Positions 34,506-64,000 of a stretch of DNA of 64,000 nucleotides are shown here, piece after piece. The notes under the pieces were generated by a model. That model was not told where the DNA came from. It ran no database searches and saw only the letters and a list, made by a program, of their open reading frames with translations. The DNA is taken from the NCBI GenBank assembly GCA_016841525.1, contig JAENYZ010000002.1, positions 330,078-394,077 of the forward strand, written 5' to 3'. Every line of letters starts with the position of its first letter. Position 1 is the first letter of the stretch. Origin of the DNA: Anaerolineaceae bacterium. GTDB taxonomy: Bacteria; Chloroflexota; Anaerolineae; Anaerolineales; Anaerolineaceae. The position numbers were made by a program, and so were the translations under genes.

Positions 34506-35723
34506 ATGATAAACCGTCTGCAGAGAGAATTTTCACAATACCCGCGCCAGTTCTGGCTGATTTTCGTCGGCATGGCAATTGCCATGACCGGTGCGACCAT
34601 GATCTGGCCGTTCTTGATGATTTATGCCAGCGATAAGCTTTCGCTTTCACTGGCTGCTGCAGCCAGCTTGATGTCAATCAACGCGGTTACCGGCCTGGTC
34701 TCGGCGATCATTGCCGGCCCGATCGTCGATCGTTTAGGCCGTAAATGGGTGATGGTGGTCAGCCTGGTTGGCAACGGCGTGTGTTATATCTTTCTTAACC
34801 GGGCTTCAAGCTATCCCGCCTTTGCCCTGATCATGGGCATCAGTGGGGCTTTTTCACCGCTGTACCAGGTGGGCAGCGATGCCATGCTGGCAGACCTCTT
34901 CCCGGTGGGCAAGCGGGCGGATGCCTATGCCCTGTATCGAATGGCCCGGAATATTGGCGTGGCAGCAGGACCGGCATTGGGTGGGCTGGTTTTAGCACGC
35001 TCATACAGCATAGGGCTCTTTAGCGCGGCAGCAGGTTATATTTTTTTCGGCTTGTTATTGCTTTTATTTGCACGGGAAACGCTGCCTGAAGGCATCAACG
35101 AGGAAAAATCCAGCCTGGTGAGACAATTAAGAGGCTATTGGCAGGCATTGACTGACAAAGCCTTTATGTCCCTGGTCGGGGCTTTTACGCTCATTCAAAT
35201 GACCGCTTCTTTGATGTGGGTGCTTCTGTCTGTGTACGTGAAGACGGAATACGGCATTCCGGAGCGTTTATACGGATGGCTGCCGACCACCAACGCATTG
35301 ATGGTGGTTTTCTTTCAGGTTCTGATCACTCGTAAAACCCGGTCTTATCCAAACGTCCATGTGATGCGTTGGGGGTCAATATTTTATATCTTTGCACCGC
35401 TGATTGTCGCTCTATCATCTGGCTTTTGGGGGTTCTGGATGGCAATGGTGGTCATGACCCTTGGTGAGCTGGTGGTCGTGCCGAGAACCAGCGCCTATGC
35501 TGCTAACCTCGCGCCGATTGACAAGCGCGGCCGCTATATGAGCCTTTATGGATTATCCTGGAATGTGGCTGTGGGGATCAGCCCGGTTTTAGGAGGATTT
35601 CTCAGCGACCGAATTTGTCGCCAGGCACCATGGTGGGGCGGCGCTGTTTTTGGCCTTTTGGCTGTGGTTGCCTTCTGGACAATGAGTAAAAATTCATCAA
35701 CTGAGGTTTCTAACCAATCTTAA
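34506..35723 (+). CDS. MFS transporter
   Basis: A 405-residue integral membrane protein with 12 predicted helices. The loop 2-3 signature is present as GPIVDRLGRKWVMV near residues 73-86, and the second-half equivalent as DKRGRYMSLYG. The substrate is unknown. Sugar- and drug-exporter branches share this layout. The ATG lies only eight bases after a TATAAT box with an extended TG, and no Shine-Dalgarno is visible. Initiation is therefore probably leaderless. Confidence 0.9.
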   Translation: MINRLQREFSQYPRQFWLIFVGMAIAMTGATMIWPFLMIYASDKLSLSLAAAASLMSINAVTGLVSAIIAGPIVDRLGRKWVMVVSLVGNGVCYIFLNRASSYPAFALIMGISGAFSPLYQVGSDAMLADLFPVGKRADAYALYRMARNIGVAAGPALGGLVLARSYSIGLFSAAAGYIFFGLLLLLFARETLPEGINEEKSSLVRQLRGYWQALTDKAFMSLVGAFTLIQMTASLMWVLLSVYVKTEYGIPERLYGWLPTTNALMVVFFQVLITRKTRSYPNVHVMRWGSIFYIFAPLIVALSSGFWGFWMAMVVMTLGELVVVPRTSAYAANLAPIDKRGRYMSLYGLSWNVAVGISPVLGGFLSDRICRQAPWWGGAVFGLLAVVAFWTMSKNSSTEVSNQS

Positions 35724-35734
35724 CATTTAAAGCC

Positions 35735-35764
35735 TTGACAAAAGATCCACTTATTGCGTATGAT
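35735..35764 (+). promoter_or_regulatory. Sigma-70 type promoter of the LuxR-like gene
   Basis: TTGACA (35735-35740), an 18-base spacer and TATGAT (35759-35764). The palindromic operator begins at the very next base. Confidence 0.85.
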
Positions 35765-35780
35765 TAGAACATATGTTCTA
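35765..35780. promoter_or_regulatory. SOS-box-like (LexA/DinR-type) operator
   Basis: TAGAACATATGTTCTA is a perfect 16-bp palindrome containing GAAC-N4-GTTC, the core of the Gram-positive LexA (DinR) box. It abuts the -10 box and covers the expected transcription start, which is ideal for repression. Recognition by a Chloroflexota LexA is inferred. Confidence 0.7.
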
Positions 35781-35838
35781 TTTATTTATGGGCAGATTAT
35801 GGTACGCAAGCGCGCGGGGTCTACAGGAGGATTCCAGA

Positions 35839-36243
35839 ATGACAAGAGTATTGATTTTCAAAGAGCCGGATGCTTTTGGCGTTGTAGAAGTAAACGCCCC
35901 GGCTGAGCGGATCATTCGGGCTGTTAACCAGGGTCGTTGGGAAGCCTATTTGCCTGATGCTAAAGGACCTTTATATGCCCGTAAACAAGGTGATATAGTT
36001 GTGATCACCCGGAGCGCGCCCGTACCGGAACAAGACCTTCCTAAACTCAGCCGAAGGGAGCACCAGGTTTTAGTATTGCTGGGGGAGGGCTTAACCACTG
36101 CCCAAATCGCCCTCAAGCTTGGTTTGCGTCCCCGAACCATTCGGGGGTATGTGGCGAATATGAAGGCGCGCCTTGATGCGCATAATATCCAGCAGCTTGT
36201 TGCTCGAGCCGTCGCATTGGGGCTGTTCAGGCCGGAGTTGTGA
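35839..36243 (+). CDS. Small LuxR-type helix-turn-helix protein
   Basis: A 134-residue protein. Residues 1-60 form a small domain of unknown type (starting MTRVLIFKEPDAFGVVEV). Residues 68-130 are a GerE/LuxR helix-turn-helix with LSRREHQVLVLLGEGLTTAQIA and TIRGYVANMKARL. The ATG eight bases after AGGAGG is clearly preferred over an upstream in-frame ATG. There is no receiver domain, so the input signal is not phosphorylation. The promoter bears a SOS-like box, pointing to DNA-damage control. Confidence 0.82.
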   Translation: MTRVLIFKEPDAFGVVEVNAPAERIIRAVNQGRWEAYLPDAKGPLYARKQGDIVVITRSAPVPEQDLPKLSRREHQVLVLLGEGLTTAQIALKLGLRPRTIRGYVANMKARLDAHNIQQLVARAVALGLFRPEL

Positions 36244-62325: not shown

Positions 62326-62439
62326 CTACAGAAGGCTTTATTTTTTCACTCGATTGCCGCTTGCGGCAATTTTTGCTTTAAAACCTGCCGCTTTTGACGG
62401 ATTGTAAACGCCCCTTTAATTTGCTAAACTCTTGTCAGA

Positions 62440-62457
62440 TTAGAACAAAAGTTCTAA
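62440..62457. promoter_or_regulatory. Second SOS-box-like operator
   Basis: TTAGAAC-AAAA-GTTCTAA has perfect seven-base arms and the GAAC-N4-GTTC core. It shares GATTAGAAC with the operator before the LuxR-like gene. It lies 17 bases before the GTG of the phage-like cassette. Confidence 0.68.
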
Positions 62458-62473
62458 TTAAGGAGAAGCCCGG

Positions 62474-62944
62474 GTGACCAATGCCCTGACCATACCCCCC
62501 TTAATGCGCTTTGCGTCGCACCCGGGTCTTCTCCCACCTGGTTCACTGATACACACTGAGGAGGATCACACCCTTATGACCGCCAGGAAGCGCCCGGAAG
62601 GCGAAGTTGGCTTTTATGTGGAACATTTCACCCGTGCTGAAATGCGGGACCTGGATCGTGCCCTGGGGGAATCGCTGCAGGGGGAGATCGGCATGCTGCG
62701 GGTCACCATGCGCCGGTTCTTTGAGCGGGCAGCCCGGGAAGCCGATGATATGGACGCCCTGGCGGATGTGCTGCGCGTGCTGGGTCTGAGCTGTTCACGC
62801 CTGGCTAAGATCATCCAGACCGAACGATCGATGCAGGATAAGCGCGCTGATGAGTTAGCTGACGCTTTAACCCACTCCATGACTGCCGTGCTGGACGAAC
62901 TGAGCAATGCAAGCCTGAATACCTCCGGCGAAGGGAAGGCTTAG
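62474..62944 (+). CDS. Phage-like small protein upstream of terminase (possible small subunit)
   Basis: A 156-residue protein starting at GTG, after AAGGAG eight or nine bases upstream. The middle is helical (RAEMRDLDRALGESLQGEIGMLRVTMRRFF) and acidic stretches follow. I do not recognise a family. Its position two genes before a terminase large subunit, the spacing of one base to the next gene and the absence of a signal peptide make a terminase small-subunit or packaging-accessory role plausible, but this is inference. Confidence 0.6.
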   Translation: MTNALTIPPLMRFASHPGLLPPGSLIHTEEDHTLMTARKRPEGEVGFYVEHFTRAEMRDLDRALGESLQGEIGMLRVTMRRFFERAAREADDMDALADVLRVLGLSCSRLAKIIQTERSMQDKRADELADALTHSMTAVLDELSNASLNTSGEGKA

Positions 62945-62945
62945 G

Positions 62946-63221
62946 ATGGACGAATCGACAGCATTGCTGACCGAGCAGTTACGCCATGCCAATGCCCTGC
63001 TGCAGGCACAGATCAAAACCCTGGATGCCCGCCTGGCGCACCAGCAAGCGATGAACCAGCAGCGTTTAGCCATGCTGGAAGAGCAGATCCGCGACCACGA
63101 GACCCGCATTCGAACGGCGACGGAAGGCGTGACGCAGTTCAAGCTTTTCTCCGGGCTGGCATCCGGGGGCTCGGGGTTGATGTCAATGGTGGCATTGATC
63201 AAGGCTTTTTTGGGCGGTTAG
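62946..63221 (+). CDS. Small coiled-coil protein with hydrophobic C-terminus
   Basis: A 91-residue protein. Residues about 5-62 form a strong coiled coil (LLTEQLRHANALLQAQIKTL and onward). The last 25 residues are hydrophobic and Gly-rich (FSGLASGGSGLMSMVALIKAF). The layout recalls small phage membrane proteins of the XhlA or holin-accessory kind, but no motif proves this. It begins one base after the preceding stop and ends three bases before the terminase gene. Confidence 0.6.
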   Translation: MDESTALLTEQLRHANALLQAQIKTLDARLAHQQAMNQQRLAMLEEQIRDHETRIRTATEGVTQFKLFSGLASGGSGLMSMVALIKAFLGG

Positions 63222-63224
63222 CAG

Positions 63225-64000
63225 ATGACGAAACTGGTAGAGCTTTTAAAGAAACTACTACGGGATGTGGTGCTCTTTGTACAGACGGCGAATGGGCTGC
63301 AGCTGCGCAGCTACCAGGAAGCTGTTGCCCGGTCGGTGATCCATTCCGTGGTGCACGGTGAGGGCTTGAGTTTTGTGGTGATCTTCCCGCGCCAATCGGG
63401 CAAGAATGAACTGCAGGCGCAGCTCCAGGCGTACCTGCTGACCCTGTTCTCCGCGCAGCAGCAGGAGATGGTGCAGGTTTCCCCCACCTGGCGCCCGCAA
63501 ACGGAAAACGCCATGCACCGCCTGGAGCGGGTGCTGAGTTCGAACCTGATCGTTAAAGACCGCTGGGAGAAGCACACCGGGCATATCTACCAGGTGGGCA
63601 AAGCGCGCCTGACCTTTCTTTCCGGATCCCCCACGGCCAACATCGTAGGGGCTACAGCAAATTTACTTTTATCGATCGACGAAGCCCAAGACATCGCCCA
63701 GGATAAATTCGATAAAGACATCGCACCCATGGCAGCCAGCACCAACGCCACCCGTGTTTTTTGGGGCACCGCCTGGACTTCAAATACACTGTTAGCCCGT
63801 GAAGAACGGGCAGCCAGGGCATTGCAAGAAAAAGACGGGGTCCAAAGGGTTTGGAAATTAACTTGCGATCATGTCGCTGCTGAAGTGCCCCCCTACGGTA
63901 AATTTGTGGCCGACCAGGTGGCCAAATTAGGCCGTAATCATCCCATGGTAAGAACGCAATACTTCAGCGAAGAGATCGACTCGGAGGGTGGCCTCTTTCC
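63225..64000 (+). CDS. Phage terminase large subunit (5' part, cut by the window edge)
   Basis: The first 258 residues of a terminase-like ATPase. Walker A is IFPRQSGKNE near residues 56-65 and Walker B is LLLSIDEAQDI near 145-155. The WGTAWTSNTLLARE block is consistent with motif III. It would drive DNA packaging in a phage or gene-transfer-agent-like particle. The open frame runs without a stop to the window end. The start is ATG three bases after the preceding stop. Confidence 0.82.
   Translation, partial: MTKLVELLKKLLRDVVLFVQTANGLQLRSYQEAVARSVIHSVVHGEGLSFVVIFPRQSGKNELQAQLQAYLLTLFSAQQQEMVQVSPTWRPQTENAMHRLERVLSSNLIVKDRWEKHTGHIYQVGKARLTFLSGSPTANIVGATANLLLSIDEAQDIAQDKFDKDIAPMAASTNATRVFWGTAWTSNTLLAREERAARALQEKDGVQRVWKLTCDHVAAEVPPYGKFVADQVAKLGRNHPMVRTQYFSEEIDSEGGLF

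Follow-up and report, generated by a model that had tools for sequence, protein, structure and literature searches.

A very probable LexA operator at the promoter of a small LuxR-type regulator gene in an Anaerolineaceae genome

The window analyzed here, i.e., the whole stretch of 64,000 nucleotides, contains a gene for a small LuxR/GerE-type regulator, a transporter gene directly ahead of it, and, close to the 3' end, the start of a phage-like gene cassette (Table 1). The preliminary description of this DNA had placed TTGACA, an 18-base spacer, and TATGAT directly before TAGAACATATGTTCTA at the regulator gene; reading the sequence at 35735-35780 confirmed this arrangement, with TAGAACATATGTTCTA being a perfect 16-base palindrome. 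Because the palindrome abuts the -10 hexamer, it covers the expected transcription start rather than the hexamers themselves. An open reading frame (ORF) listed from 35773 is a 156-aa 5' extension of the regulator gene and reaches into the palindrome. The MFS transporter gene at 34506..35723 is beyond the reach of the putative operator; an MFS-like ORF (by eye) lies ahead of the regulator at 13 of the 19 loci viewed.

Table 1. Features of the window around the LuxR-type regulator gene and the phage-like cassette.
Feature	Position	Strand	Basis or remark
-35 hexamer TTGACA	35735..35740	+	direct reading; TTGAC (by eye) in most homologous promoters
-10 hexamer TATGAT, 18-base spacer	35759..35764	+	direct reading
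Putative LexA operator TAGAACATATGTTCTA	35765..35780	+	abuts -10; core shared with lexA, one mismatch with recA
Ribosome-binding site AGGAGG	35825..35830	+	direct reading
Gene for 134-aa receiver-less LuxR/GerE-type regulator, ATG at 35839	35839..36243	+	PF00196
GerE helix-turn-helix domain, residues 69-123 of 134 aa	36043..36207	+	residues 91-145 of the 156-aa extension
MFS transporter gene, directly 5' of regulator	34506..35723	+	PF07690
Putative second operator of this type, TAGAACAAAAGTTCTA, ahead of phage-like cassette	62441..62456	+	same proposed LexA regulon
TTGCCGCTTGCGGCAA, candidate activator site	62354-62369		5' of the weak -35 of the cassette promoter; kept in 8 genus loci
CCGCTTTTGACGG, candidate activator site	62388-62400		5' of the weak -35 of the cassette promoter; kept in 8 genus loci

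The regulator protein matches the GerE family in the Pfam search (51.9 bits, cut-off 23.5), and the Pfam families listed for it include neither a receiver domain nor the autoinducer-binding domain that is a feature of quorum-sensing LuxR proteins, in agreement with the earlier reading of a small LuxR-type protein lacking a receiver. No family match in Pfam, NCBIfam, or PHROG was confined to residues 1-54, and the NCBIfam response-regulator matches begin at residue 55 or later. Most of the best 60 of 99 matches in a PDB profile search cover the helix-turn-helix part only, with NarL (1a04) being aligned over residues 12-121; a single-sequence structure prediction was poor (mean pLDDT 61). The protein was not found in a search of viral contigs. 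In an order-level search of 251 genomes, the matches listed outside its own family scored at most 70 bits and comprised the helix-turn-helix end of the profile only, with the exception of one genome (G221, 14-133, 58.7 bits).

The genome holds a single LexA match, to the equivalog TIGR00498 (164 bits, cut-off 110.95), with both the LexA_DNA_bind and Peptidase_S24 domains present. Its lexA promoter, which reads TTGACAtCGAACGTATGTTCGtg, carries CGAACGTATGTTCG (also written GAACGTATGTTC) with the same core as the site at the LuxR-type gene, GAAC-N4-GTTC, which is the core of the Gram-positive LexA (DinR) box in the Bacillus subtilis consensus. Across the family, the exact core was found at 46 of 51 lexA loci and seven of its eight letters at three more; the two failing loci are short, and the fixed offset used may be misplaced there. 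The lexA boxes mostly sit between the -35 and -10 hexamers (by eye). A second conserved stretch, TAGCACAAATGAGCG-like, lies 3' of the lexA box in the leader (L016, about 1745-1770) in many genera and is perhaps a weak second LexA site. This second stretch (TAGCACAAATG-like) had at first been considered as a target of the LuxR-type protein; this candidate was dropped, since the stretch is present in genera for which a full-length luxR homologue is not listed and reads by eye as a weak second LexA-like box.

At the genome's own recA, a one-mismatch form lies in the promoter spacer (TTGACA-cact-GAACATTTGTGC-TAAAAT), and the same weakened form was seen at the 11 other recA loci viewed from the genus. 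In 30 further recA loci, a form with six or seven of the eight core letters is located at the promoter in 26 (24 with seven and two with six), and the best places in the other four are away from the promoter (by eye). In 20 more loci, for which places were counted solely if ahead of a -10-like hexamer, 18 have seven letters, one has six, and one has none; a full eight-letter core was seen at none of the recA loci examined. From these lexA and recA promoter forms, GAAC-N4-GTTC is taken to be the family's LexA motif, seemingly with tolerance for a weakened right half. The scan of SOS genes suggested in the preliminary description returned the exact core at lexA, the one-mismatch form at recA, and GAACATTTGTTC at an operon for a family-B DNA polymerase; a clearly different motif at lexA and recA, which the preliminary description had named as refuting its reading, was thus not what the promoters showed.

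The boxed polymerase operon consists of a small RecA/ImuA-like gene (by eye), which matched phrog_16666 only and no Pfam or NCBIfam family, followed by the polymerase gene (PF00136, 120.6 bits). Further members of the proposed regulon in this genome, likewise preceded by the core, are a gene for a radical SAM protein that is related to TIGR03916 (E 1.8e-80) but, with 271 bits, falls short of the family cut-off of 343.5, one for an ATPase with weak FtsK/EccC matches, one for a 251-aa membrane protein (by eye) with no Pfam, NCBIfam, or PHROG match, and the phage-like cassette. At the membrane protein locus (L008:1501-2311), TAGAACAAGTGTTCTA is positioned between TTGACA and TATAAT; this pairing recurs in relatives, which repeat several of the box-gene pairings. 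Directly 5' of the boxed polymerase operon lies another small LuxR-type gene (140 aa, L005:1039-1461), to which an ORF at L171 is similar.

Conservation of the box at the LuxR-type gene was assessed by searching the 134-aa protein against the 147 genomes of the family. The resulting sample of 50 homologues, spanning 11 genera, was composed of the 30 loci returned and the next 20 places, with a contig-edge fragment (G028) left out. Within 250 bases upstream, 48 of the 50 have a box that matches 10 or more of the 12 letters and 45 have one that matches 11 or more, whereas only nine of 2,000 Markov shuffles reached 10 and a single one reached 11. One of the two misses is a homologue without a box (L046); at the other (L091), a box with 7/8 core and 4/4 flank letters shares one base with the start codon and was truncated by the scoring script, hence its count as a miss. 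A -10-like hexamer lies at most 12 bases 5' of the box in 45 of the 50 promoters. The exact core is present in just 20 of the 50 luxR boxes, and in 18 an A takes the place of the inner G in the right half-site, a form not seen at lexA.

Combined, these results indicate that TAGAACATATGTTCTA is very probably the operator of the organism's LexA, controlling the small LuxR-type regulator, because the same core is found at lexA, is weakened at recA, and is conserved at the homologues; the regulator gene would then very probably be an SOS gene. The SOS-type operator interpretation of the preliminary description is thereby supported, by the core shared with lexA and by the box at homologues in 11 genera. 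Points that speak against it are the bare core lacking enrichment in the genome, the 16-letter form being hardly enriched beyond the own genus and g26, the exact core at no more than 20 of the 50 luxR boxes, and the boxless homologue L046. Among the features of a LexA regulon that are testable in sequence, the palindrome at the promoter, the motif at lexA, the conservation, and the LexA domains were all found, and the recA box is imperfect. In the proposed mechanism, LexA would sit directly 3' of the -10 hexamer, over the transcription start, and when bound would shut the strong sigma-70-type promoter. Upon DNA damage, RecA would trigger LexA self-cleavage, the promoter would open, and the 134-aa LuxR-type protein would be made; binding, repression, and induction at TAGAACATATGTTCTA are all predicted steps. 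The most likely role of the 134-aa protein is that of a DNA-binding regulator in a second tier of the damage response.

An alternative reader of the palindrome is the LuxR-type protein (autoregulation), either as its sole reader or at a site shared with LexA. The site looks longer and more constant at the luxR gene than at lexA, and its TA flanks and ATAT centre also look more constant there than at recA, leaving room for a shared site or a second protein; its layout also fits the 7-2-7 spacing known from NarL-type sites. However, the LuxR recognition-helix residues that usually contact bases vary widely among homologues that keep the site (by eye), whereas the LexA recognition helix is nearly invariant (21 sequences), and boxes persist before the cassette in genomes for which no full-length luxR homologue is listed, e.g., Pelolinea submarina (G107). 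These observations favor LexA as the reader of the site, and the core in lexA promoters across the family also argues against the LuxR-type protein as reader, which is considered unlikely. In favor of a shared site, one bound by both LexA and LuxR is described for Vibrio fischeri luxR in PMC3323433. That TAGAACATATGTTCTA belongs to an unrelated repressor fond of GAAC-N4-GTTC palindromes is very improbable: palindromes this long are common among repressor sites, but a motif at lexA, weakened at recA and present before a DNA polymerase operon, is what is expected of LexA.

The core GAAC-N4-GTTC occurs at 32 places in the 3.2-Mb genome vs. 45 for the reversed control; since the bare core is not enriched, its genome-wide count was not used as evidence. 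A total of 24 of the 32 places are inside ORFs of at least 120 aa and eight are outside, with the TAGAACATATGTTCTA site being one of the 24, covered solely by the 5' extension of the LuxR-type ORF. Within the window, the 12-letter core is found twice against 0.74 expected, a count reached by 20 of 100 shuffles. The 16-letter form occurs at three places in the genome (control 0), which precede the 251-aa membrane protein gene, the LuxR-type gene, and the phage-like cassette. It was counted 29 times (forward) vs. three for the control in 16 genomes of the genus and 114 vs. 41 in all 147 family genomes; with the own genus and g26 set aside, the counts drop to 41 vs. 28, the excess lying mainly in those two. 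A chance palindrome beside an ordinary promoter, which would agree with the bare core being no commoner than the control pattern, is hardly credible given the box at 48 of 50 homologues vs. nine of 2,000 shuffles.

The proposed LexA control has several counterparts in known systems. The LexA (DinR) operators of Bacillus subtilis and other Gram-positive bacteria have the same palindromic core as the sites located here at the promoters of lexA and, imperfectly, recA. Unlike the Gram-positive DinR operators, the present site has TA...TA flanks and abuts the -10 hexamer, and the proposed regulon includes a LuxR-type gene; the host, from the family of Pelolinea, also differs. The LuxR of V. fischeri is a quorum-sensing protein of a proteobacterium, whereas the 134-aa protein is without a recognised ligand domain. 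For V. fischeri luxR, also a LuxR-family gene, PMC3323433 describes the direct control by LexA that is predicted here from sequence. The vpsT of Vibrio cholerae encodes a biofilm regulator, in another phylum, with a domain make-up that differs from that of the 134-aa protein. In a table of PMC5963079, vpsT is a LuxR-family regulator labelled SOS response, and a LuxR-family response regulator of Myxococcus appears in a mitomycin C proteome table (PMC12288472). The preliminary description had stated that a LuxR-type regulator under direct SOS control would be noteworthy; this noteworthiness is lessened by the precedents of V. fischeri luxR and V. cholerae vpsT. Among the titles and abstracts listed from the open literature, no SOS-controlled LuxR-type gene or gene transfer agent (GTA) was found for Anaerolineae. 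The present results provide a sequence-based outline of an SOS regulon for a little-studied group and place one of its transcription factors under probable LexA control, so that its damage response may include a second tier of regulation.

The cassette behind TAGAACAAAAGTTCTA measures about 11.5 kb and continues past the window end (62441-64000 and on; L180:1552-13025). Its genes are, in order, ORFs of 156 and 91 aa, a terminase large subunit, a GH25 lysozyme (PF01183), a portal (phrog_10963, 3e-34), and a protease-capsid fusion matching phrog_29592 and phrog_133; at the 3' end, four ORFs without a PHROG match are followed by a beta-glucosidase-like gene (by eye). The terminase was matched in 103 of the 147 family genomes (57 of the 64 good ones); 89 of these 103 genomes contain exactly one match. 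Four records of the phage collection match it with at most 31% identity, and the 50 terminase loci on viral contigs are all on contigs of at most 16.7 kb. A box with at least 7/8 core and 3/4 flank letters is located within 1450 bases 5' of the terminase at 22 of 30 loci vs. 10 of 1200 shuffles, and nine of 14 named loci have such a box with 4/4 flank letters, at least four being the same sequences as among the 30. Pelolinea submarina has a boxed terminase, and no portal or capsid was found within 10 kb of it. By its genes, the cassette resembles a gene transfer agent behind a LexA-type box.

Cassette promoters from eight loci of the genus share TTGCCGC-TT-GCGGCAA-like and CCGCTTTTGACGG-like elements before the weak -35, making TTGCCGCTTGCGGCAA and CCGCTTTTGACGG candidate activator sites; in other genera, a CTTTTGACAG-like element was noted by eye. 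The CCGCTTTTGACGG element, counted with at most one mismatch, shows no enrichment in this genome (nine places vs. 11 for the control), and a longer form of the activator element occurs at 26 places in the genus vs. eight for the control. The leader at about 62457-62540 keeps CCGGGTGAC...CACCCGG-like inverted stretches in the genus loci, and an Rfam search that included this leader returned no match. A GTG start at 62474 lies inside the conserved leader; therefore, the true start is probably further on.

The arrangement of the boxed cassette resembles LexA-linked GTA control in Caulobacter and Dinoroseobacter: PMC9632790 describes Caulobacter RogA as a LexA-like repressor of GTA activators, and for Dinoroseobacter, PMC6473078 lists promoters for which a CtrA or LexA site is predicted, a GTA cluster being one of the entries. 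Unlike that arrangement, the LuxR-type gene also occurs without the cassette terminase, as in G025 (98% complete), which has the gene and no terminase match. For the 51 genomes with both genes (luxR matches as listed), these are on the same contig in 19 and on different contigs in 32. The distance between them is 4.7-8.5 kb in ten g26 genomes, 4.6 kb in G055, 6.2 in G016, 8.3 in G022, 10.8 in G026, 13.9 in G027, 15.6 in G023, 23.6 in G069, 27 in this genome, and 278 kb in G010. A terminase match was found in 51 of 63 luxR-positive vs. 52 of 84 luxR-negative genomes, a weak association (Fisher p 0.018) in which 63 is a minimum for luxR-positive genomes and kinship and completeness are ignored. 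A tblastn search of 26 luxR proteins against the 14 named terminase loci gave no match at 1e-4. The weak co-occurrence, the promoter elements in genomes without the luxR gene, and G025 together argue against a tight link, and G025 also against a dedicated role. A circuit in which LexA would hold both the LuxR-type gene and a domesticated phage-like (GTA-like) cassette, with the SOS-induced regulator driving the cassette by activating its weak promoter via the upstream elements, is rather improbable. Since a LexA-type box also precedes this phage-like cassette, which is widely conserved, damage-induced gene transfer becomes a testable hypothesis in a cultured relative, Pelolinea submarina.

A second promoter with the same elements and a LexA box is located at about 15690-15860 of L353 (own genome around C5:455697-455763), where it precedes a short ORF that looks decayed. 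The gene at the equivalent place in L373 resembles the first gene of the cassette (by eye), and G025 has three matches of this second-promoter kind, two of which were flagged with a box by the script.
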